Assembly: GCA_903902035.1 (NCBI GenBank)
Contig: CAIUTG010000183.1
Location: 1 to 41,363 of the forward strand
DNA: 41,363 nt
Reading direction: 5' to 3'
Source of the DNA: an uncultured Curvibacter sp.
GTDB taxonomy: Bacteria > Pseudomonadota > Gammaproteobacteria > Burkholderiales > Burkholderiaceae_C
Below the pieces are notes generated by a model. That model saw nothing but the letters and a program-made list of their open reading frames with translations, searched no databases and was not told the DNA's origin. Below are positions 1,032 through 17,604 of this stretch, in pieces; within the stretch, counting starts at the first letter, position 1; every line of letters starts with the position of its first letter. Both the position numbers and the translations under genes were made by a program.

Positions 1032-1946
1032 TCATGCAGGCAACTGCAGCTGCTCTCTCACCATCCCGCGCAACAACTGAAAAGTAAGGTCCAGGGGCTG
1101 GGCGCTGGTGTCCAACTTGAGTTGGGCCTTGGAATAAAAAGCCGCACGGCCCTGCAAAATGCTTTTGAGGTCTTCCATCGCCTCTGGGCTGGCTGCCATC
1201 GGGCGCATGTCCCCTTGGGCCTGAACCCGGGCCATGTGGTCTTGCGGGTCGGCCTGCAACCACACCGTGGTGCAATGGCTGAGCAACTGGTTGAAGGTTG
1301 CCGGGTCGGAGACCAAGCCGCCGGGAGTGGCAATCACGGCTTCGGGGTAAATTTGAATGGCCTCTTCCAATGCGCGTCGCTCGTAACGCCGATAGGCCGC
1401 CACGCCATACAAGGCCTGGATTTCCGCCACACTGCAGCCGGCAAATTGCTCAATTTCCCGGCTCAATTCCACAAAAGGAAAGCCCAGGTCCTGCGCCAGC
1501 ATCGAGCCCAAGGTGGACTTGCCCGCGCCCCGCAACCCCACCAAAGCGACACGGGGGTTGGCGTGCGGGCTGCTGCCCCCGGTGCCCAGGGCTTCCCCAA
1601 TGGCGATGCGGGCTTTGCGCAAGGTGTTTTCATCGGCCGACCCCAACAACTCGCGGATCAGCAACCACTCCGGGTTGGCGGTGGTGACATCGCCCAGCAA
1701 TTCCACCAATGAACACTGCAAGGCCGTGGCCACCTGCTGCAAGACCAAGATGGAAGCATTGCCTTCGCCGTATTCCAGATTGGCCAGATGCCGCTCCGAC
1801 ACCTGGGCCGCTTGTGCCACCGCTTTGCGGGTCATGCCACGACGCGAGCGCAGGGAGCGCACGCGCTCGCCCAAGGCCATCAGAAAGGGGTTCTTGGCGG
1901 CCGATTCAGACAGGCTTTGATCAGGGTCCAGGGCGACAGCATTCAT
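1032..1946 (-). CDS. boxR: BoxR-type transcriptional regulator (XRE HTH fused to shikimate-kinase-like domain)
   Basis: A 304-residue regulator that is expected to sense benzoyl-CoA and control the box genes. The first part of the protein holds an XRE/Cro-type helix-turn-helix (LRSRRGMTRKAVAQAAQVSERHLANLE, about residues 31-58). The C-terminal half resembles shikimate kinase, with a P-loop GLRGAGKST near residue 138. This two-domain arrangement is the hallmark of BzdR/BoxR. The ATG at 1946 is preceded by GAGATGAA as a plausible ribosome site; a TATACT -10-like hexamer (1974-1969) lies next to the palindromic operator, so autoregulation is likely (inference). It sits between boxC (same strand, 90 bp downstream) and the divergent DUF4863-boxD operon, which is the expected position for the pathway regulator. 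Confidence 0.92.
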   Translation of the reverse strand: MNAVALDPDQSLSESAAKNPFLMALGERVRSLRSRRGMTRKAVAQAAQVSERHLANLEYGEGNASILVLQQVATALQCSLVELLGDVTTANPEWLLIRELLGSADENTLRKARIAIGEALGTGGSSPHANPRVALVGLRGAGKSTLGSMLAQDLGFPFVELSREIEQFAGCSVAEIQALYGVAAYRRYERRALEEAIQIYPEAVIATPGGLVSDPATFNQLLSHCTTVWLQADPQDHMARVQAQGDMRPMAASPEAMEDLKSILQGRAAFYSKAQLKLDTSAQPLDLTFQLLRGMVREQLQLPA

Positions 1947-1968
1947 GTTTCATCTCAGGGCAAACCCG

Positions 1969-1974
1969 AGTATA
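1969..1974 (-). promoter_or_regulatory. Possible -10 box of boxR
   Basis: On the minus strand TATACT matches five of six positions of TATAAT and lies 22 nt upstream of the boxR ATG. The sequence 17 nt further upstream (ATGAAG) is a poor -35. The box adjoins the palindrome, which would fit control by a bound regulator. The call rests on the hexamer and its position only. Confidence 0.35.
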
Positions 1975-2016
1975 TGCAATATATTGCTTGACTTCATGGC
2001 AAGCAGGCTTTATCTT
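1975..2016 (+). promoter_or_regulatory. Promoter of the DUF4863-boxD-bclA operon with candidate BoxR operator
   Basis: The perfect 12-bp palindrome GCAATATATTGC (1976-1987; TGCA-N6-TGC from 1975) directly abuts TTGACT (1988-1993). A 17-nt spacer and TATCTT (2011-2016) complete a sigma70-like promoter. Over the 20 positions from GCA to TTGACTTC, it matches the boxC promoter block at 16 of 20. Transcription would start near 2022, about 70 nt before the GTG of the first gene. The palindrome also lies between the putative -10 of boxR and its upstream region, so a regulator bound here could control both directions. That the regulator is BoxR is an inference. Confidence 0.65.
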
Positions 2017-2092
2017 TCAAGCACGCACAATAATTCATGTCTTGAAAAAAAACAAGCCGCATTCTCAAGCTTTCTCAAATTTGGAGCCCCCT

Positions 2093-2578
2093 GTGACCCC
2101 CGCCGAGTTTCGCAACCTCTTAACCCCCTTGACGCAGGCCATCGCCCAGCAGCTCAATGGTCAGGCGTTGAGCGCCCGCTTGGGCCAATGGCTCAACCAG
2201 CATTACGGGCCCGCAAGCGCTCCCTACCAAGCCATCAAGCAAGCCTGTGAAACCGGTGTGCAGGCTGGCTGGCTGGCCCAATACGAAGGCAGCGGTCTGC
2301 GCTATGGCCGCATCTTCAAACCCGCCGACGACCTGCAGGGTTTTTCAGTCGATGTGGTAGACATGAACAACGTGGCGGGCCCCCACCATGTGCATCCCGA
2401 AGGCGAAATTGATCTGATCATGCCGCAAGACGGCGACGCCCTGTTTGATGGCACCCCGGCCGGTTGGCTGGTCTGCCCCCCCGGCAGCGCCCACGCCCCC
2501 ACGGTCACCCAAGGCCGCGCCTTGGTGCTTTATTTGCTGCCTCAAGGTCGCATCGAATTCACCACAGCCAGCGCATAA
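2093..2578 (+). CDS. DUF4863 family protein (PnbB / 4-hydroxylaminobenzoate lyase-like, cupin-type)
   Basis: A 161-residue soluble protein opening the plus-strand box operon. The start chosen is the GTG at 2093, with GGAG at 2083-2086; the longer track ORF from 1709 would run back through boxR and is not credible. The motif GPHHVHPEGEIDLIMP near the middle and PPGSAHAP near the end resemble a cupin metal site. I recognise the family as DUF4863, to which 4-hydroxylaminobenzoate lyases such as PnbB belong, and which often accompanies box clusters. No nitroreductase gene is nearby, so the lyase reaction itself is doubtful here. A role in benzoate or amino/nitrobenzoate handling is possible but not shown. 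It is followed after 31 bp by boxD. Confidence 0.7.
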   Translation: MTPAEFRNLLTPLTQAIAQQLNGQALSARLGQWLNQHYGPASAPYQAIKQACETGVQAGWLAQYEGSGLRYGRIFKPADDLQGFSVDVVDMNNVAGPHHVHPEGEIDLIMPQDGDALFDGTPAGWLVCPPGSAHAPTVTQGRALVLYLLPQGRIEFTTASA

Positions 2579-2609
2579 AAACACCTCCTTCCTGACTGGA
2601 ACAATCACC

Positions 2610-4178
2610 ATGACCGAACTTCTTTCCAATTACATCAGCGGCCAATGGCAAGCGGGCCAGGGCCCTGGCACCCCTTTGTTTGACCCGGTCACCGGCGCCG
2701 AATTGGTGCGGGTCGACGCCACGGGGCTGGACCTGGCGGCAGGCTTTGCCTTCGCCCGCGAACAAGGCGGCAGCGCCCTGCGTGCGATGACTTACCAGGC
2801 GCGTGGCGCATTGCTGGGGGCCATCGTCAAGGTGTTGCAAAGCCACCGCGATGCCTATTACGAGATGGCCACCGCCAACAGCGGCACGGTGCCAACCGAC
2901 TCGGCCGTGGACATCGATGGCGGCATTTACACCTTGGGCGTCTACGCCAAGATGGGCGAGAGCCTGGGCGCACGTCACTTTTTGCTGGACGGTGAGGCCA
3001 CCAAATTGGGCAAAGACCCGCTGTTCCAATCGCAGCACGTCTTGACGCCCACACGCGGTGTGGCCTTGTTCATCAATGCCTTTAACTTCCCTTCCTGGGG
3101 CTTGTGGGAAAAGGCCGCACCGGCCTTGCTGTCGGGCGTGCCCGTCATCATCAAACCCGCCACCGCCACCGCCTGGTTGACACAGCGCATGGTGAAAGAC
3201 GTGGTCGATGCGGGCGTCTTGCCGGCCGGCGCTTTGTCGGTCATTTGCGGCAGCTCGGCCGGGTTGCTGGACCAACTCCAGCCCTTTGATGTGTTGTCCT
3301 TTACGGGCTCGGCCGACACCGCGGCCGTGATCCGCTCACACCCCGCCGTGACGCAGCGCTCGGTGCGCGTGAACATTGAAGCCGACAGCATCAACTCGGC
3401 CCTGTTGTTGCCAGGCGAAGGCGCGGACAGCGAGGCCTTTGGCTTGTTTGTGAAAGAAGTGGCGCGTGAAATGACCGTGAAATCGGGTCAAAAATGCACC
3501 GCCATTCGACGCGCCCTCGTGCCCGAAGCGCTCTACAGCGCAGCGGCCCAGGCCATCAGCGCCCGCCTCGCCAAAACCGTGGTGGGCAACCCCCGCAATG
3601 AAAGCGTGCGCATGGGTGCTTTGGTCAACCGGGCGCAACTCAATACCGCCAAAGAAGGCTTGGCCTATTTGAGCGCCCAAACAGAAGTCTTGCACGACGG
3701 CAGCCAAACCGCTTTGGTGGATGCCGATGCCGCCGTGTCTTGCTGCATGGCCCCGACCTTGTTCGGCACACGCCATGCCGCCGGCAGCGACGCCGCCGAC
3801 CGCGTGCACGACACCGAAGTGTTCGGCCCCGTCGCCACCCTGGTGCCTTACCGCGACCTGGCCCATGCGCTGCATTTGGTGCGCCGTGGTTTGGGCTCCC
3901 TGGTGTGCTCCTTGTACGGCCAAGACCCCCAGGCCCTGGCGCATGCCGCCAGTGAATTGGCCGACAGCCATGGCCGCGTTCACCTCATTTCGCCCGATGT
4001 GGCGGCGCTGCATACAGGCCACGGCAATGTGATGCCTCAGTCTTTGCACGGCGGCCCCGGCCGTGCCGGCGGCGGCGAAGAGTTGGGGGGAATGCGTGCC
4101 CTGAATTTTTACCATCGCCGCAGCGCCCTCCAGGCCAGCACCACGGTCTTGGCGCTCCTGAGCCCGACCTCCCCTTGA
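2610..4178 (+). CDS. boxD: 3,4-dehydroadipyl-CoA semialdehyde dehydrogenase (NADP+-type) BoxD
   Basis: A 522-residue aldehyde dehydrogenase that oxidises the BoxC product 3,4-dehydroadipyl-CoA semialdehyde to 3,4-dehydroadipyl-CoA. The start is the ATG at 2610 (MTELLSNYISGQW), because the track ORF from 2445 overlaps the DUF4863 gene. Visible family features are INAFNFPSWGLWEKAAPALL, the general-base Glu257 in VNIEADS, and the catalytic Cys296 in VKSGQKCTAIRR; the Cys context is characteristic of BoxD/PaaZ-like ALDHs. A C-terminal GGPGRAGGGEELGGMRAL segment is also typical. It is in an operon with the DUF4863 gene and, 24 bp downstream, the CoA ligase. PaaZ-type enzymes are the nearest alternative, but no hydratase domain is present and the box context is decisive. 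Confidence 0.93.
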   Translation: MTELLSNYISGQWQAGQGPGTPLFDPVTGAELVRVDATGLDLAAGFAFAREQGGSALRAMTYQARGALLGAIVKVLQSHRDAYYEMATANSGTVPTDSAVDIDGGIYTLGVYAKMGESLGARHFLLDGEATKLGKDPLFQSQHVLTPTRGVALFINAFNFPSWGLWEKAAPALLSGVPVIIKPATATAWLTQRMVKDVVDAGVLPAGALSVICGSSAGLLDQLQPFDVLSFTGSADTAAVIRSHPAVTQRSVRVNIEADSINSALLLPGEGADSEAFGLFVKEVAREMTVKSGQKCTAIRRALVPEALYSAAAQAISARLAKTVVGNPRNESVRMGALVNRAQLNTAKEGLAYLSAQTEVLHDGSQTALVDADAAVSCCMAPTLFGTRHAAGSDAADRVHDTEVFGPVATLVPYRDLAHALHLVRRGLGSLVCSLYGQDPQALAHAASELADSHGRVHLISPDVAALHTGHGNVMPQSLHGGPGRAGGGEELGGMRALNFYHRRSALQASTTVLALLSPTSP

Positions 4179-11415: not shown

Positions 11416-12756
11416 ATGAGCGCTGCCCCAACTCCCTTCCAAAATCTTGCCGTCCGCAGCCTGGCTGCTGTCTGGCACCCCTGCACCCAAATGGCCCGCG
11501 CGGCGGTGGTGCCCCCCCTGGCCATTGCCCGGGGCGAAGGCCCCTGGTTGTTGGATGTTGAGGGACGTCGCTACTTTGACGCCAACAGTTCTTGGTGGGT
11601 CAATTTGTTTGGCCACTCCGACCCGGGCATTCACCAGGCCATCAAGGACCAGCTTGACCGCCTGCCCCATGTGATGTTGGCCGGTTGTACCCACGAGCCC
11701 GCGGTGACGCTGGCAGAAAAATTATCGGCCTTGACCCAAGGGGCTTTGGGCCACACTTTTTTTGCCAGTGACGGGGCCTCGGCGGTGGAAATCGCGCTCA
11801 AGATGAGCTTTCACAGTTGGAAAAACCAGGGTCTGGCGCAAAAAAAAGAATTTATCTGCCTGCGCAACGGCTACCACGGCGAAACCATAGGGGCCCTGGC
11901 AGTCACCGATGTGGCGATTTTTCGGGATGCCTATGAACCCTTGCTGATGCAAGCGCATCTGGTGGCCTCGCCCGACTCCCGACATGAGGGCTCCGAAGCG
12001 CTGGCGCTGGCCGATTTGCGGCGCACCCTGAGCCAACGCCAGGGCCAGGTGGCCGCGGTCATCCTGGAGCCGCTGGTGCAATGCGCGGCGGGCATGGTAA
12101 TGCACAGCCCCGCCTATTTGCGCAGCGTGCGGGCTTTGTGCGACGAGTTCGAGGTGCACCTGATTGCCGATGAAATTGCCGTGGGCTGTGGCCGCACAGG
12201 CACTTTTTTCGCCTGGGAACAAACCCATGAGGGCCTGTCGGGCGATCCCGTCAAACATTGGCCCGACTTCATCACCCTGTCCAAAGGCATCAGCGGCGGC
12301 ACCCTGCCCCTGTCCCTGGTCTTGAGCACCGAAGCCGTGTTTCAAAGCTTTTGGAGCGACGAGGTGGCACGCGGCTTTTTGCACTCGCATTCCTACACCG
12401 GCAACCCACTGGCCTGTGCCGCCGCCAATGCGGTGCTGGACCGCTTTGCCCAAGCCCAAGTGGTGGCACAAAATCAAATTCAGGCACAACACCTGCGCCA
12501 GGCCTTGGCGCCACTGGCCCAGGACCCCCGGGTGCAACATTGGCGCCAGCGCGGCATGGTGGTGGCTTTTGATGTGGTCGGCAAGCACGACCGTTTTGCC
12601 GAGCGCTTTCACCAAGCGGCGCGCCAACATGAGTTGCTGATTCGCCCGATTGGTCAAACGGTCTATGTGATGCCGCCTTATTTGATCGACGCGGCGACCG
12701 CGCAATTTTTGTTCGAGGGCATTCGGCGCAGTCTGAACGAGGTAGTGCATGGTTGA
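11416..12756 (+). CDS. bioA: Adenosylmethionine-8-amino-7-oxononanoate aminotransferase
   Basis: A 446-residue class III PLP aminotransferase that converts KAPA to DAPA with S-adenosylmethionine as amino donor in biotin synthesis. It starts MSAAPTPFQNLAVRSLAAVWHPCTQM; the WHPCTQM motif is diagnostic of BioA. Others are DANSSWWVNLFGH, FFASDGASAVEIALKM, NGYHGETIGAL, IADEIAVGCGRTG and the PLP lysine Lys290 in TLSKGISGGTLPLS. Its 3' end overlaps bioF by 8 bp. It heads a bioA-bioF-bioD cluster. bioB is not in the window. Confidence 0.96.
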   Translation: MSAAPTPFQNLAVRSLAAVWHPCTQMARAAVVPPLAIARGEGPWLLDVEGRRYFDANSSWWVNLFGHSDPGIHQAIKDQLDRLPHVMLAGCTHEPAVTLAEKLSALTQGALGHTFFASDGASAVEIALKMSFHSWKNQGLAQKKEFICLRNGYHGETIGALAVTDVAIFRDAYEPLLMQAHLVASPDSRHEGSEALALADLRRTLSQRQGQVAAVILEPLVQCAAGMVMHSPAYLRSVRALCDEFEVHLIADEIAVGCGRTGTFFAWEQTHEGLSGDPVKHWPDFITLSKGISGGTLPLSLVLSTEAVFQSFWSDEVARGFLHSHSYTGNPLACAAANAVLDRFAQAQVVAQNQIQAQHLRQALAPLAQDPRVQHWRQRGMVVAFDVVGKHDRFAERFHQAARQHELLIRPIGQTVYVMPPYLIDAATAQFLFEGIRRSLNEVVHG

Positions 12757-14017
12757 CGAAATCTCTTCCCTGTTAAACCCCTTCAAAACCAAACTGCAAA
12801 CCCTGGCAGACCAGCAGTTGATTCGGGTGCTGCGCGCGGCCGAAACGGGCACCGCCCCACACCAGCGGGTGCACAGCGGCCAGCACCAAGACCCGCACAC
12901 CAGCCAAGACTTGCTGATGTTTTGCTCCAACGACTACCTGGGCTTGGCGGCCCATCCCGACATCGCAGCGGCCTTGATCGAGGGCGTGGATTTGTACGGC
13001 GCTGGCTCGGGTTCTTCGCACCTCATCAGCGGTCACTCGGTCGCCCACCAGGCCTTGGAAGCGGCCTTGGCCGCCTGGGTACAGCCCCAAATCCCGCAGG
13101 CCCAAGCGCTTTATTTTTGCACCGGCTACATGGCCAATCTGGCAGTGATTTCGGCTTTGGCCGATGAGCACACCGCCATTTTTTCGGAAGCCTTGAACCA
13201 TGCTTCCTTGATCGATGGGATTCGCCTGGCGCGGGCCAAGGGGGCCCAGATGCACCGTTACCCCCACCTGGATTTGGCCACCCTTGCCGAGCAATTGGCG
13301 CAGAGCCCAGCGGCGGTCAAACTCATCGTCACCGATGCCGTCTTCAGCATGGATGGCGAATTGGCGCCTTTGGCTGATTTGTTGGCGCTGGCAGAACAAC
13401 ACCAGGCCTGGCTGGTGGTGGACGATGCCCACGGCTTCGGCGTGCTGGGCCCCAACGGACAAGGCACGCTGGCGCATTTTGGCTGTCGCAGCCAGCGCCT
13501 GATTTTGGTCGGCACCCTGGGCAAGGCCGCCGGTGTGGCCGGGGCCTTTGTGGCGGCGCATCCCACCCTCATTCAATTTCTGATTCAAACCGCCCGCCCC
13601 TACATCTTCACCACCGCCGCGCCGCCTGCTGTGGCCCATGCCCTGTTGACCAGCCTGGCGCTGATGCAAGACGAGCGCGGCCAAGCCCGACGCGAACAGT
13701 TGAGGCGCCTGCAAACCCAGTGGCAAACCGGGATGCGCGCGCTCCTGGCACGCCGACCCGATCTTGGCTGGACCCTGATCGACAGCCCCACCCCCATCCA
13801 ACCCCTGGTGGTGGGTGACAACGCCACCGCACTGGCGCTGGCCGCTGGTTTGGAAAAACGTGGCATCCGGGTGCCTGCCATCCGCCCCCCCACCGTGCCG
13901 GCGGGCACCGCCCGCCTGCGCGTGACCCTGTGTGGCAGCCACACCGAAGCCGATGTGGCCCAGTTGCTGGCGGCCTTGGAAGCCGAAGCCAACGGACAAG
14001 CAAATTCGCCAACATGA
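12749..14017 (+). CDS. bioF: 8-amino-7-oxononanoate synthase
   Basis: A 422-residue alpha-oxoamine synthase that condenses pimeloyl-thioester with alanine to KAPA. The motifs CSNDYLGLAAHPD, GAGSGSSHLISGH, VTDAVFSMDGELAPL, VVDDAHGFGVLG and Lys259 in GTLGKAAGVAGAF (PLP lysine) are those of BioF. It is slightly longer than the usual 380-400 residues because of an insert around residues 30-50 (ETGTAPHQRVHSGQHQDPHTSQD). It overlaps both bioA (8 bp) and the bioD-purN gene (4 bp, ATGA), so all three are translationally coupled. Confidence 0.95.
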   Translation: MVDEISSLLNPFKTKLQTLADQQLIRVLRAAETGTAPHQRVHSGQHQDPHTSQDLLMFCSNDYLGLAAHPDIAAALIEGVDLYGAGSGSSHLISGHSVAHQALEAALAAWVQPQIPQAQALYFCTGYMANLAVISALADEHTAIFSEALNHASLIDGIRLARAKGAQMHRYPHLDLATLAEQLAQSPAAVKLIVTDAVFSMDGELAPLADLLALAEQHQAWLVVDDAHGFGVLGPNGQGTLAHFGCRSQRLILVGTLGKAAGVAGAFVAAHPTLIQFLIQTARPYIFTTAAPPAVAHALLTSLALMQDERGQARREQLRRLQTQWQTGMRALLARRPDLGWTLIDSPTPIQPLVVGDNATALALAAGLEKRGIRVPAIRPPTVPAGTARLRVTLCGSHTEADVAQLLAALEAEANGQANSPT

Positions 14018-15333
14018 CCCCTGCCTTCTCTGGATTTTTCATCACCGGCACCGACACCGAAATCGGCAAAACCGCCCTCACTGCGGCCCTCACCCATTTG
14101 CTGGGCCAAAGCGGTCGGCGCGCGGTCGCCATCAAACCGATTGCAGCGGGCCTGGAACAGGTGGATGGCCGCTGGGTCAACGACGATGTGCAACGCCTGC
14201 GTGCAGCCAGCAACATCGAAGTGCAAGACCAGGAGGTCGGCCCGCTGCAACTGCGCCATGCCTGTGCCCCGCACATCGCCGCCGTCTTGGAAAACGTGGC
14301 GATTGACCGCCAAGCCTTGCTGGCCGAGGTTCGGCGCACAGCGGCCAAGGCCGAGGTCAGTGTGGTGGAAGGGGTGGGCGGGTTTTGTGTGCCGCTGGTA
14401 GAGGGAGCGTCCCCCTGGGACAGCGCCGACCTGGCCGTGGACTTGGCCTTGCCGGTGGTGCTGGTGGTGGGCATGCGCTTGGGCTGCATCAACCATGCGC
14501 TGTTGAGCGCCGAGGCGATTCGCGCCCGGGGTCTGAAATTGGTGGCCTGGGTGGCCAACCAGGTGGATCCGAACATGGGCCATGCCGACGCCAACTTTGC
14601 CACTCTGAGTCAAAGGCTGCAAGCCCCCTGCTGGGGTCGGGTGCCCTTTTTGCTCCAAGCCGACCCGGCCCACATTGCGCCTTATTTGAATGCGCCAGCG
14701 GTGCTCCAGGAATTGGTGGCCCATCCGGCTCCGAGCCCACGCCAAAACATCGTCATTCTGATTTCGGGTTCGGGCTCGAACATGCAGGCCATTGCCGAAA
14801 CCGCACAGACCGAACAATGGGCCCAGCGCCACGGCATCCAGATTGCGGCGGTGATCAGCAACCGGGCCGACGCAGCGGGCCTGCCAATCGCCAAGCGCCT
14901 GGGCCTGCACACCGAGGTCTTGCCGCACACGCAGTTTGCATCACGCACCGATTTCGATGCCGCTTTGCGCCAATTGATCGACCGTTTTGCCCCCGATCTG
15001 GTGGTGCTGGCGGGCTTCATGCGGGTGCTCACGCCCGAGTTTGTGCAGCACTATGCGGGTCGGCTGATCAACATTCATCCCTCCTTATTGCCCGCTTTCC
15101 CTGGCTTGAACACCCACCAGCGTGCCATTGAAGCAGGCTGCAAAGTCGCCGGGGCCACGGTGCATGAGGTCAGTGTGGAGGTGGACCAGGGCCACATCCT
15201 GGCCCAGACCGTGGTGCCCGTCTTGCCCGATGACGACGCCGAGACTTTGGCGCAACGCGTGCTGGCTGCCGAACACCGGCTTTACCCAACCGCAGTGCGC
15301 CAAAAACTCAGCCAAAAACTCAGCCAAAATTGA
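14014..15333 (+). CDS. Dethiobiotin synthetase BioD fused to phosphoribosylglycinamide formyltransferase PurN
   Basis: One uninterrupted 439-residue reading frame containing two enzymes. Residues 1 to about 232 are BioD: P-loop GTDTEIGKT at 11-19, AIKPIAAGLE, VVEGVGGFCVPL and WVANQVDP. Residues about 245-439 are PurN: NIVILISGSGSNMQAI, INIHPSLLPAFPGLNTHQRAIE (catalytic Asn353 and His355) and VEVDQGHILAQ (Asp391). The PurN part has the usual full length, and no ATG lies where free PurN would begin; only in-frame TTG (14713) or GTG (14716) could restart translation. BioD closes biotin's ureido ring using ATP and CO2; PurN formylates GAR in purine synthesis. The ATG overlaps the bioF stop. The 3' end overlaps the convergent DODA gene by 14 bp. 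Confidence 0.92.
   Translation: MTPAFSGFFITGTDTEIGKTALTAALTHLLGQSGRRAVAIKPIAAGLEQVDGRWVNDDVQRLRAASNIEVQDQEVGPLQLRHACAPHIAAVLENVAIDRQALLAEVRRTAAKAEVSVVEGVGGFCVPLVEGASPWDSADLAVDLALPVVLVVGMRLGCINHALLSAEAIRARGLKLVAWVANQVDPNMGHADANFATLSQRLQAPCWGRVPFLLQADPAHIAPYLNAPAVLQELVAHPAPSPRQNIVILISGSGSNMQAIAETAQTEQWAQRHGIQIAAVISNRADAAGLPIAKRLGLHTEVLPHTQFASRTDFDAALRQLIDRFAPDLVVLAGFMRVLTPEFVQHYAGRLINIHPSLLPAFPGLNTHQRAIEAGCKVAGATVHEVSVEVDQGHILAQTVVPVLPDDDAETLAQRVLAAEHRLYPTAVRQKLSQKLSQN
15301..15324 (+). repeat. Tandem 12-bp duplication at the end of bioD-purN
   Basis: CAAAAACTCAGC occurs twice in a row and is followed by a partial third copy (CAAAAT). In the fusion gene it encodes QKLSQKLSQN at the very C-terminus. 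The stop codon of the convergent dioxygenase gene lies in the second copy, so the duplication shapes the ends of both genes. Confidence 0.85.
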
Positions 15334-16141
15334 AGCCAGACACGCGGGTTTCCAACACCCGGTCCGTGAACACCTTGCGTCCCAAGTCTTGGCCGGCAGC
15401 GCCAGCCACCACCATCAAGGGCAGCAGGTGTTCTTCTGCCCTGGGCGGGTGGCACCAGCGCGCCATCGGCGCTTGTGCCCAATCGATCAGGGCCTGATTG
15501 CGCTCAGGCACAGGGGAGGCCATTGCCTGGGTTAACCAATCGTCAAACGCATCGGAAATGGGGCCGAAACGCGGGTCACGGTAGCCCCGCATGTTGTGGA
15601 AACTCATGCCACTGCCGATGATCAAAATGCCTTCATCGCGCAAGCTCGCCAAGCTTCGCCCCAGTTGCAAATGGGCGGCCGGGTCCAGGCTTTTCAGCAA
15701 GGAAACCTGCACCACCGGAATGTCTGCCGCAGGGAACATCAGCATCATGGGAATGAACATGCCGTGGTCAAAACCCCGGTTGGGGTTGGGGTGCGAGGCC
15801 TGACCGGCCTGGGCCAACAAAGTCTCAACACGGGCGGCCAGTTCCGGCGAGCCCGGTGCGGGGTAGGTCAGCTCATAGGTGTGGGGCGGAAAACCATAGT
15901 AATCAAACAGCAGCTCAGGCCTGACCCCATTCATCACGCCCACATCGGACTCCAGCCAATGGGCCGAGACCATGACGATGCCCCGAGGCTTGGCGGGCAA
16001 AGTGGCGGCCTGGGATTTCAGGTAGTCGGCCATGCGGTCCCAAGTGTCTGGCGGGCTGTATTCCATGAAAAAGCAGGGGCCACCCCCATGCGGGATGTAC
16101 CAGGTGGGCATGCGAAGCGAGGGCGATGTGACGGTGTTCAT
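15320..16141 (-). CDS. DODA-type extradiol ring-opening dioxygenase (LigB superfamily, YgiD-like)
   Basis: A 273-residue class III extradiol dioxygenase of the 4,5-DOPA dioxygenase group. The likely metal ligands are the histidines in WYIPHGGGPCFF and SAHWLE, with further conserved His in RGFDHGMFIPM and SGMSFHNMRGY. The ATG at 16141 (AAGG 8 nt upstream) is preferred to the TTG at 16171 in the track. It is the last gene of a same-strand run (ligA, ligB, exonuclease, DUF294) and overlaps the convergent bioD-purN gene by 14 bp. Its natural substrate is unknown; a catecholic compound is expected from the family. Confidence 0.88.
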   Translation of the reverse strand: MNTVTSPSLRMPTWYIPHGGGPCFFMEYSPPDTWDRMADYLKSQAATLPAKPRGIVMVSAHWLESDVGVMNGVRPELLFDYYGFPPHTYELTYPAPGSPELAARVETLLAQAGQASHPNPNRGFDHGMFIPMMLMFPAADIPVVQVSLLKSLDPAAHLQLGRSLASLRDEGILIIGSGMSFHNMRGYRDPRFGPISDAFDDWLTQAMASPVPERNQALIDWAQAPMARWCHPPRAEEHLLPLMVVAGAAGQDLGRKVFTDRVLETRVSGFNFG

Positions 16142-16167
16142 GCCATCTACCTTAGCCGCCAGGCGGC

Positions 16168-17604
16168 TCAAAGGTGGTAAGCCAATTGCAATACATCCTG
16201 CAATTTTTTTGATTGTTTGAGCGCCATCTTCAACACGGCCCGATCGAGTTCATTGAGCTGGTCCGGGTCAATCCGGTTTTCAGCCCCCGAGGGCAGGTTC
16301 TCGCGCTGGTGCAGCAGGCGCAATTTCTGGATGAACAAGAACCCGTCCACCATGGCCTCCACATCCTCCCCCACCAAGGCCCCGCGCCGCACCAGGGTGC
16401 GCAGGCGCTCGATGGTGGAGGTTTCGCTCACCCCATGGGCCAAGGCCAAAATGCGCGCAGCATCGACAAACAGGCGCGAGCCAAAGGCCTTCAGGTCCAG
16501 GGTGTTGGGAAAGTCTTTGTCGTCGTCAAAAACAAAGTCCCGGATCAGGCCCAGCGGGGGACGGGCCTTGAGCGCCGTTTCTGCCATGAAGCGCAAGAAC
16601 AGGCCTTCCTGGGGCACGCTTTTTTGCAAGCCCAGATGCAAGGCTTCGGCCAAAGCCTCTTGGCCATAAAGGGGCCGAAAGTCAAAGAAGATCACCGCGT
16701 TGAGCATGGCCTGGGCATCGCCGCTGCGCATCCAGTCGGCAAAGCGTTGACGCCACTCGGCCAGCGACAAACACAGCTCGGGGTTGCTGGCCATGATGTT
16801 GCCCTTGCACAAGGGGAAACCACAGGTGTCCAGTCGGTCATTCACCACCGCAGCGAAGGGCAAGAAGGCTTGCCGGGTGGCCTCCACCTCTTCGGGCTTG
16901 CAATCGAACAGCAGGCCATTGTCCTGATCGGTGGCCAGGGTTTGCTCAAAGCGCCCTTCCGAACCAAAGGCCAGCCAGCACCAGGGCACCGGGGGCAGGG
17001 TGAAATCACGTCGGGTCAATTCCACCACCCGCATCACCAGCAAATCATTCAGGGTGGACAGGGTTTGCATGACCTGCTCGGCAGCAGCCCCCTCGGACAA
17101 CATGCGCTTGGCCACTTGTTGCGCCTCGTCAGCGGCCATTTCCAACACATGCATGTCGCGCGCCTCACGAATGGTCATGCTCAACGCTTTGGCGTTGCCA
17201 CGCTGCACATCCAGGATGTCGCTTTGCGAAATCACCCCCACCAAGCGCCCCGCCGCGTCGACCACGATCAGGTGATGAATGCCATGTCGGGCCAACAACA
17301 TCTCGGCCTGGTAAGCCTTGGCGCGCCAGTTCAACAGGATCAAATGGCTGTCGGAGATGAGCGACAAAATCATCGTGTCCAGGTCCAGGCCATGCAAAGC
17401 CACCTTGTGCAACAAATCGCGCAAGGTGAAAATGCCCATCGGGCGGCCGCTCTCAGGCTCAACCACCACCACCGAACCCACTTTTTCAGCGGCCATCAAA
17501 GCCACCACTTCGCGCAGCAAAGCGTCGGGCATGACCGTGACGGGCTTGCGACGCAGGAATTCAGCCAAGGGGCTGTGCAGGGTGAGGCGGTTGCGGGCGA
17601 CCAT
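16168..17604 (-). CDS. CBS-domain protein with DUF294 nucleotidyltransferase-like region
   Basis: A 478-residue soluble protein. Two CBS repeats occupy roughly residues 14-135 (PVTVMPDALLREVVALM and ILLNWRAKAYQAEMLLARHGIHHLIVVD). The DUF294 nucleotidyltransferase motif GSEGRFEQTLATDQDNGLLFD follows around residue 240, with the Asp pair kept, and a DUF294_C helical domain ends the protein. The family is known as a putative regulatory nucleotidyltransferase; the reaction is not established. The start is the ATG at 17604, one codon after the TTG start of the track. Only 13 bp separate it from the upstream exonuclease gene, and the two types are commonly adjacent, so they probably act together. 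Confidence 0.85.
   Translation of the reverse strand: MVARNRLTLHSPLAEFLRRKPVTVMPDALLREVVALMAAEKVGSVVVVEPESGRPMGIFTLRDLLHKVALHGLDLDTMILSLISDSHLILLNWRAKAYQAEMLLARHGIHHLIVVDAAGRLVGVISQSDILDVQRGNAKALSMTIREARDMHVLEMAADEAQQVAKRMLSEGAAAEQVMQTLSTLNDLLVMRVVELTRRDFTLPPVPWCWLAFGSEGRFEQTLATDQDNGLLFDCKPEEVEATRQAFLPFAAVVNDRLDTCGFPLCKGNIMASNPELCLSLAEWRQRFADWMRSGDAQAMLNAVIFFDFRPLYGQEALAEALHLGLQKSVPQEGLFLRFMAETALKARPPLGLIRDFVFDDDKDFPNTLDLKAFGSRLFVDAARILALAHGVSETSTIERLRTLVRRGALVGEDVEAMVDGFLFIQKLRLLHQRENLPSGAENRIDPDQLNELDRAVLKMALKQSKKLQDVLQLAYHL

Follow-up and report, generated by a model that had tools for sequence, protein, structure and literature searches.

A bioD::purN fusion gene in the biotin operon of an uncultured Curvibacter sp. 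and two of its relatives

The fused gene and its domains

We analyzed a stretch of 41,363 nucleotides from an uncultured Curvibacter sp. (contig CAIUTG010000183.1), referred to here as the window. It contains a bioA-bioF-bioD::purN set with a branched-chain amino acid type ABC transporter located upstream. The fused gene is the third of the set. Its start codon (ATG 14014) and the stop codon of bioF overlap as ATGA, and the identical overlap occurs in one of the two related genomes described below (G008). The tail-to-tail overlap between the fused gene and the convergent dioxygenase gene comprises 14 bases (15320–15333). For coordinates and assignments see Table 1.

Table 1. Genes and protein domains at the fusion locus (window coordinates).
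Feature	Residues	Position	Strand	Basis and remarks
bioA		11416..12756	+	open frame; Pfam Aminotran_3; overlaps bioF
bioF		12749..14017	+	open frame; Pfam Aminotran_1_2; stop overlaps ATG of fused gene
bioD::purN fused gene	439 codons	14014..15333	+	open frame; NCBIfam and Pfam matches in both halves
BioD domain	1–231	14014..14706	+	TIGR00347; alignment to E. coli 1a82
Linker	~232–243	14707..14742	+	no ATG; low model confidence; varies among relatives
PurN domain	244–439	14743..15333	+	TIGR00639; alignments to 4ds3, 3tqr and E. coli 2gar
LigB-type (DODA-like) dioxygenase gene		15320..16171	-	Pfam LigB; convergent with the fusion

Translation of the fused gene gives 439 residues without a single stop. 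The BioD half matches the NCBIfam family of dethiobiotin synthases (TIGR00347) with 144.3 bits over residues 9–182, which passes the curated equivalog cut-off of 83.3 bits. The PurN half matches the phosphoribosylglycinamide formyltransferases (TIGR00639) with 220.6 bits over residues 245–435 (cut-off 150.1 bits). The Pfam assignments agree for both halves. An alignment to the E. coli enzyme (PDB-entry 1a82) showed that the motifs of BioD are kept: the P-loop GTDTEIGKT as well as KPIAAG, NDD, VEGVGG, LGCINHA and WVAN. In the PurN half, the catalytic asparagine and histidine (NIHPS) and the aspartate (VDQG) match NIHPS and LDGG of the E. coli enzyme 2gar. An earlier, sequence-only reading of this DNA had described one 439-codon frame with a complete BioD followed by a complete PurN and with active-site residues in both; the family scores and the alignments to solved enzymes bear out this description.

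An AlphaFold model of the fused protein (mean pLDDT 80, pTM 0.60) consists of two well-formed domains that resemble solved dethiobiotin synthetases and GAR transformylases. Residues 237–240 of the linker have pLDDT values below 50. Within the BioD half, model confidence is also low over the C-terminal third.

Recurrence in related genomes and translation of the PurN half

The sequence-only reading had proposed a search for the same architecture in related genomes, and it does recur. The fused gene was found in three of the nine genomes of the genus, namely the window genome (G000) and two others (G007 and G008). In these two the neighbors are the same as in the window, i.e. bioA-bioF-bioD::purN followed by a convergent LigB-type dioxygenase gene. 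The two fused proteins have 76–78% identity to the window copy. The stretch between the end of BioD and PurN is longer in them and of different sequence, and it is in frame in all three genes. Both also contain a Pro/Ala/Ser-rich insertion of approximately 25–32 residues near residue 134 of the BioD half (loci L107 and L108), which the window copy does not have; between these two loci the dN/dS of the insertion is near 1. In a tree of PurN sequences the three fused domains form a single clade (support 100/100) on a long stem inside the PurN of the family. The genomes with the fusion are small (2.3–2.5 Mb vs 4.8–6.8 Mb for the unfused members of the genus).

In the unfused relatives that were inspected, the BioD stop codon comes a few codons past the last conserved residue, and PurN begins with MKN or MKS (as in MKNIVIL) or at an ATG located a few codons upstream. 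The equivalent positions of the three fused genes read RQNIVIL, KKIVIL and RNIVIL, and no ATG precedes NIVIL/KIVIL in any of the three linkers. The ATG missing from the PurN start, the PSPRQNIVIL found in its place and the two candidate codons TTG 14713 and GTG 14716 had all been read correctly from the window sequence. The dN/dS ratio lies at 0.09–0.25 in both domains; for the linker it is close to 0.7 or higher. These ratios indicate that both halves are under purifying selection, while the linker is unconstrained in sequence and in length.

Stop codons are scarce in every frame of the fused gene (0.5–4% per codon), so that the open linker alone is weak evidence for a fused product. The argument for the fusion rests on the frame kept in three species and on the loss of the ATG. 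It has to be weighed against a frame that is fused in the DNA while PurN is mainly made separately from a GTG or TTG of the linker, with the fused form as a minor product. Initiation at GTG 14716, which would extend PurN by about nine residues, is conceivable because AGGA is located 4 nt upstream. This is the sole four-base Shine-Dalgarno-like match, its spacing is short, and it is not conserved in the other two fused genes. In-frame GTG or TTG codons occur in all three linkers. However, at no position do the three genes share an internal start equipped with a ribosome-binding site, and the candidates in the linker of G008 have no Shine-Dalgarno-like site at all. Moreover, the ATG kept by the unfused relatives is gone from all three fused genes, and the frame was preserved through the length changes of the linker. 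We therefore regard a mainly separate PurN as unlikely. Since the ATG was lost, no internal start is shared and the domains are conserved in contrast to the free linker, a read-through protein is the best reading, and we infer that the full-length protein is made. Between the two alternatives named in the sequence-only reading, a bifunctional enzyme or an internal TTG/GTG start, the comparison thus favors the former, given the conserved fusion and the loss of the ATG. Some free PurN could possibly be produced by internal initiation alongside the fused protein.

Proposed function of the fused protein

BioD carboxylates diaminopelargonate to dethiobiotin at the expense of ATP, and PurN transfers the formyl group of 10-formyl-THF to GAR. 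The biotin and purine pathways have no common intermediate, and the two enzymes share only common cofactors. Based on the comparative results we propose that the fused gene encodes a single polypeptide with BioD at the N-terminus and PurN at the C-terminus, connected by a short flexible linker. Both halves would be active, and their active sites would work independently of each other. The effect of the fusion would be co-production, i.e. a fixed ratio of both enzymes through shared transcription and translation. We favor co-production over channelling because the pathways have no intermediate in common. That this is one real two-domain BioD-PurN polypeptide, derived from one rearrangement and carrying two independent activities without channelling, we consider highly probable.

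The sequence-only reading had also raised the question of another purN in the genome. None was found in G000 besides the fused copy. Other formyltransferase matches in this genome (28–33% identity) resemble PurU- and Fmt-type enzymes rather than a second PurN. All nine genomes of the genus, the fused ones included, also encode PurT, which uses formate and ATP to form the same product as PurN. PurN activity therefore need not be essential and may be dispensable under some conditions.

It is improbable that the fusion has a selected function in the small-genome lineage, whether by holding biotin synthesis at a fixed ratio to formyl-folate-dependent purine synthesis or through an effect of the occupancy of one domain on the other. 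Channelling or allosteric coupling that ties biotin to purine or one-carbon metabolism, for example via the supply of ATP or CO2, would be in line with the retention of the fusion despite considerable divergence and with the purifying selection on both halves. The unconstrained linker and the separate intermediates of the two pathways argue against such coupling, which we consider very unlikely.

Origin, distribution and comparison with known systems

That an assembly or binning error joined two genes is hardly credible and can be ruled out even though the draft genome of G000 is broken into 258 contigs, because the fusion occurs in frame and with the same neighbors and junction arrangement in three separately assembled, diverged genomes, on contigs of 23–55 kb.

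The gene order in relatives points to the origin of the fusion. Their ancestral layout is bioA-bioF-bioD-bioB with purN elsewhere. The bioB gene immediately follows bioD in G002, G003 and nine other loci of the family, and purN adjoins rsmB and/or yceH at most of the family loci inspected. In the three fused genomes rsmB is found without adjoining purN or yceH, bioB is present on a different contig from the fusion, and purN occupies the former place of bioB after bioD. The fusion probably arose when a genome rearrangement placed purN behind bioD, as judged from these gene orders. It would have had a single origin in the ancestor of the small-genome lineage of the genus. In the simplest scenario, the rearrangement would have taken bioB away from behind bioD and inserted purN there; the stop codon of bioD and the start codon of purN would then have been lost, and purN would have come to be read through from the biotin operon. 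The gene order suggests a chance juxtaposition that was retained by descent.

Two further observations concern the biotin genes. The relocated bioB of G000 (contig C69, ~1200–3600, locus L124) adjoins an open frame on the same strand that resembles a biotin carboxylase (acyl-CoA carboxylase alpha type), possibly a pairing of enzyme and cofactor. At locus L112 (G006) the order is bioA-bioD-bioF, and its BioD is more diverged (49% identity).

Outside the genus, no BioD-PurN fusion scoring as one match was found in overlapping samples of 401 family, 399 order, 369 class and 399 phylum genomes, in surveys that could miss fusions with long or divergent linkers. A three-row profile survey breaks matches at gaps, that of G000 itself included, and absence there is therefore weaker than in the single-protein surveys. 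Among plasmid records, no single place covered 80% of the query. A number of candidates were discarded. The PurN matches of G161, G370, G032 and G085 that seemingly reach into BioD, and the PurN matches with long open frames, have no adjacent BioD; they reflect alignment overhang or frames opposite yceH. At locus L023 the contig ends within bioD; in that genome a second contig carries the remainder of bioD including a stop codon of its own, a third contig carries purN, and the genes are unfused. Three genomes of the same genus (G001, G004 and G005) gave no BioD match though bioB and purN are present, and many other family genomes likewise gave one match only. Loss or replacement of bioD may thus be common in the family.

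The locus is a clean example of two enzymes from unrelated pathways merged following a rearrangement, and the two ancestral gene orders can still be seen in relatives. It is also a warning that a domain fusion is no proof of a functional link: fusion-based ('Rosetta stone') inference would here connect the biotin and purine pathways, whereas the gene order points to chance. The link between the two pathways would be shared production and not any known shared chemistry. Automated annotation may label the product by one half and count the other as missing.

The fusion resembles the unfused BioD of E. coli (TIGR00347; 1dts, 1a82) in the whole domain, in the nucleotide-binding and substrate motifs and in the place of the gene after bioF. 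It differs in that no stop ends the BioD domain, and G007 and G008 additionally carry the insertion. With the E. coli PurN (TIGR00639; 2gar) it shares the whole domain and the catalytic Asn, His and Asp, whereas the fused PurN has no start codon of its own, an N-terminal BioD and no rsmB neighbor. Trifunctional GART (GAR transformylase domain structures 1meo and 4zyt) likewise contains a PurN domain within a multifunctional protein. The partner domains of GART are purine enzymes, whereas the partner here is BioD. According to the passage on it in PMC3713238 (citing Muralla 2008 and Cobessi 2012), BIO3-BIO1 is a eukaryotic fusion of dethiobiotin synthetase and diaminopelargonate aminotransferase with reported substrate channelling. 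It is the nearest described BioD-type fusion and shares the BioD-type domain in a bifunctional protein, but its partner is the preceding biotin enzyme, whereas that in the window is the purine enzyme PurN. A joining of BioD to BioA is not seen in the window, where bioA is a separate gene (11416–12756). We found no described BioD-PurN fusion in the open-access literature, in agreement with the sequence-only reading, which knew of none. As far as can be told, BioD-PurN is a new, undescribed and lineage-restricted pairing of two well-known enzymes.
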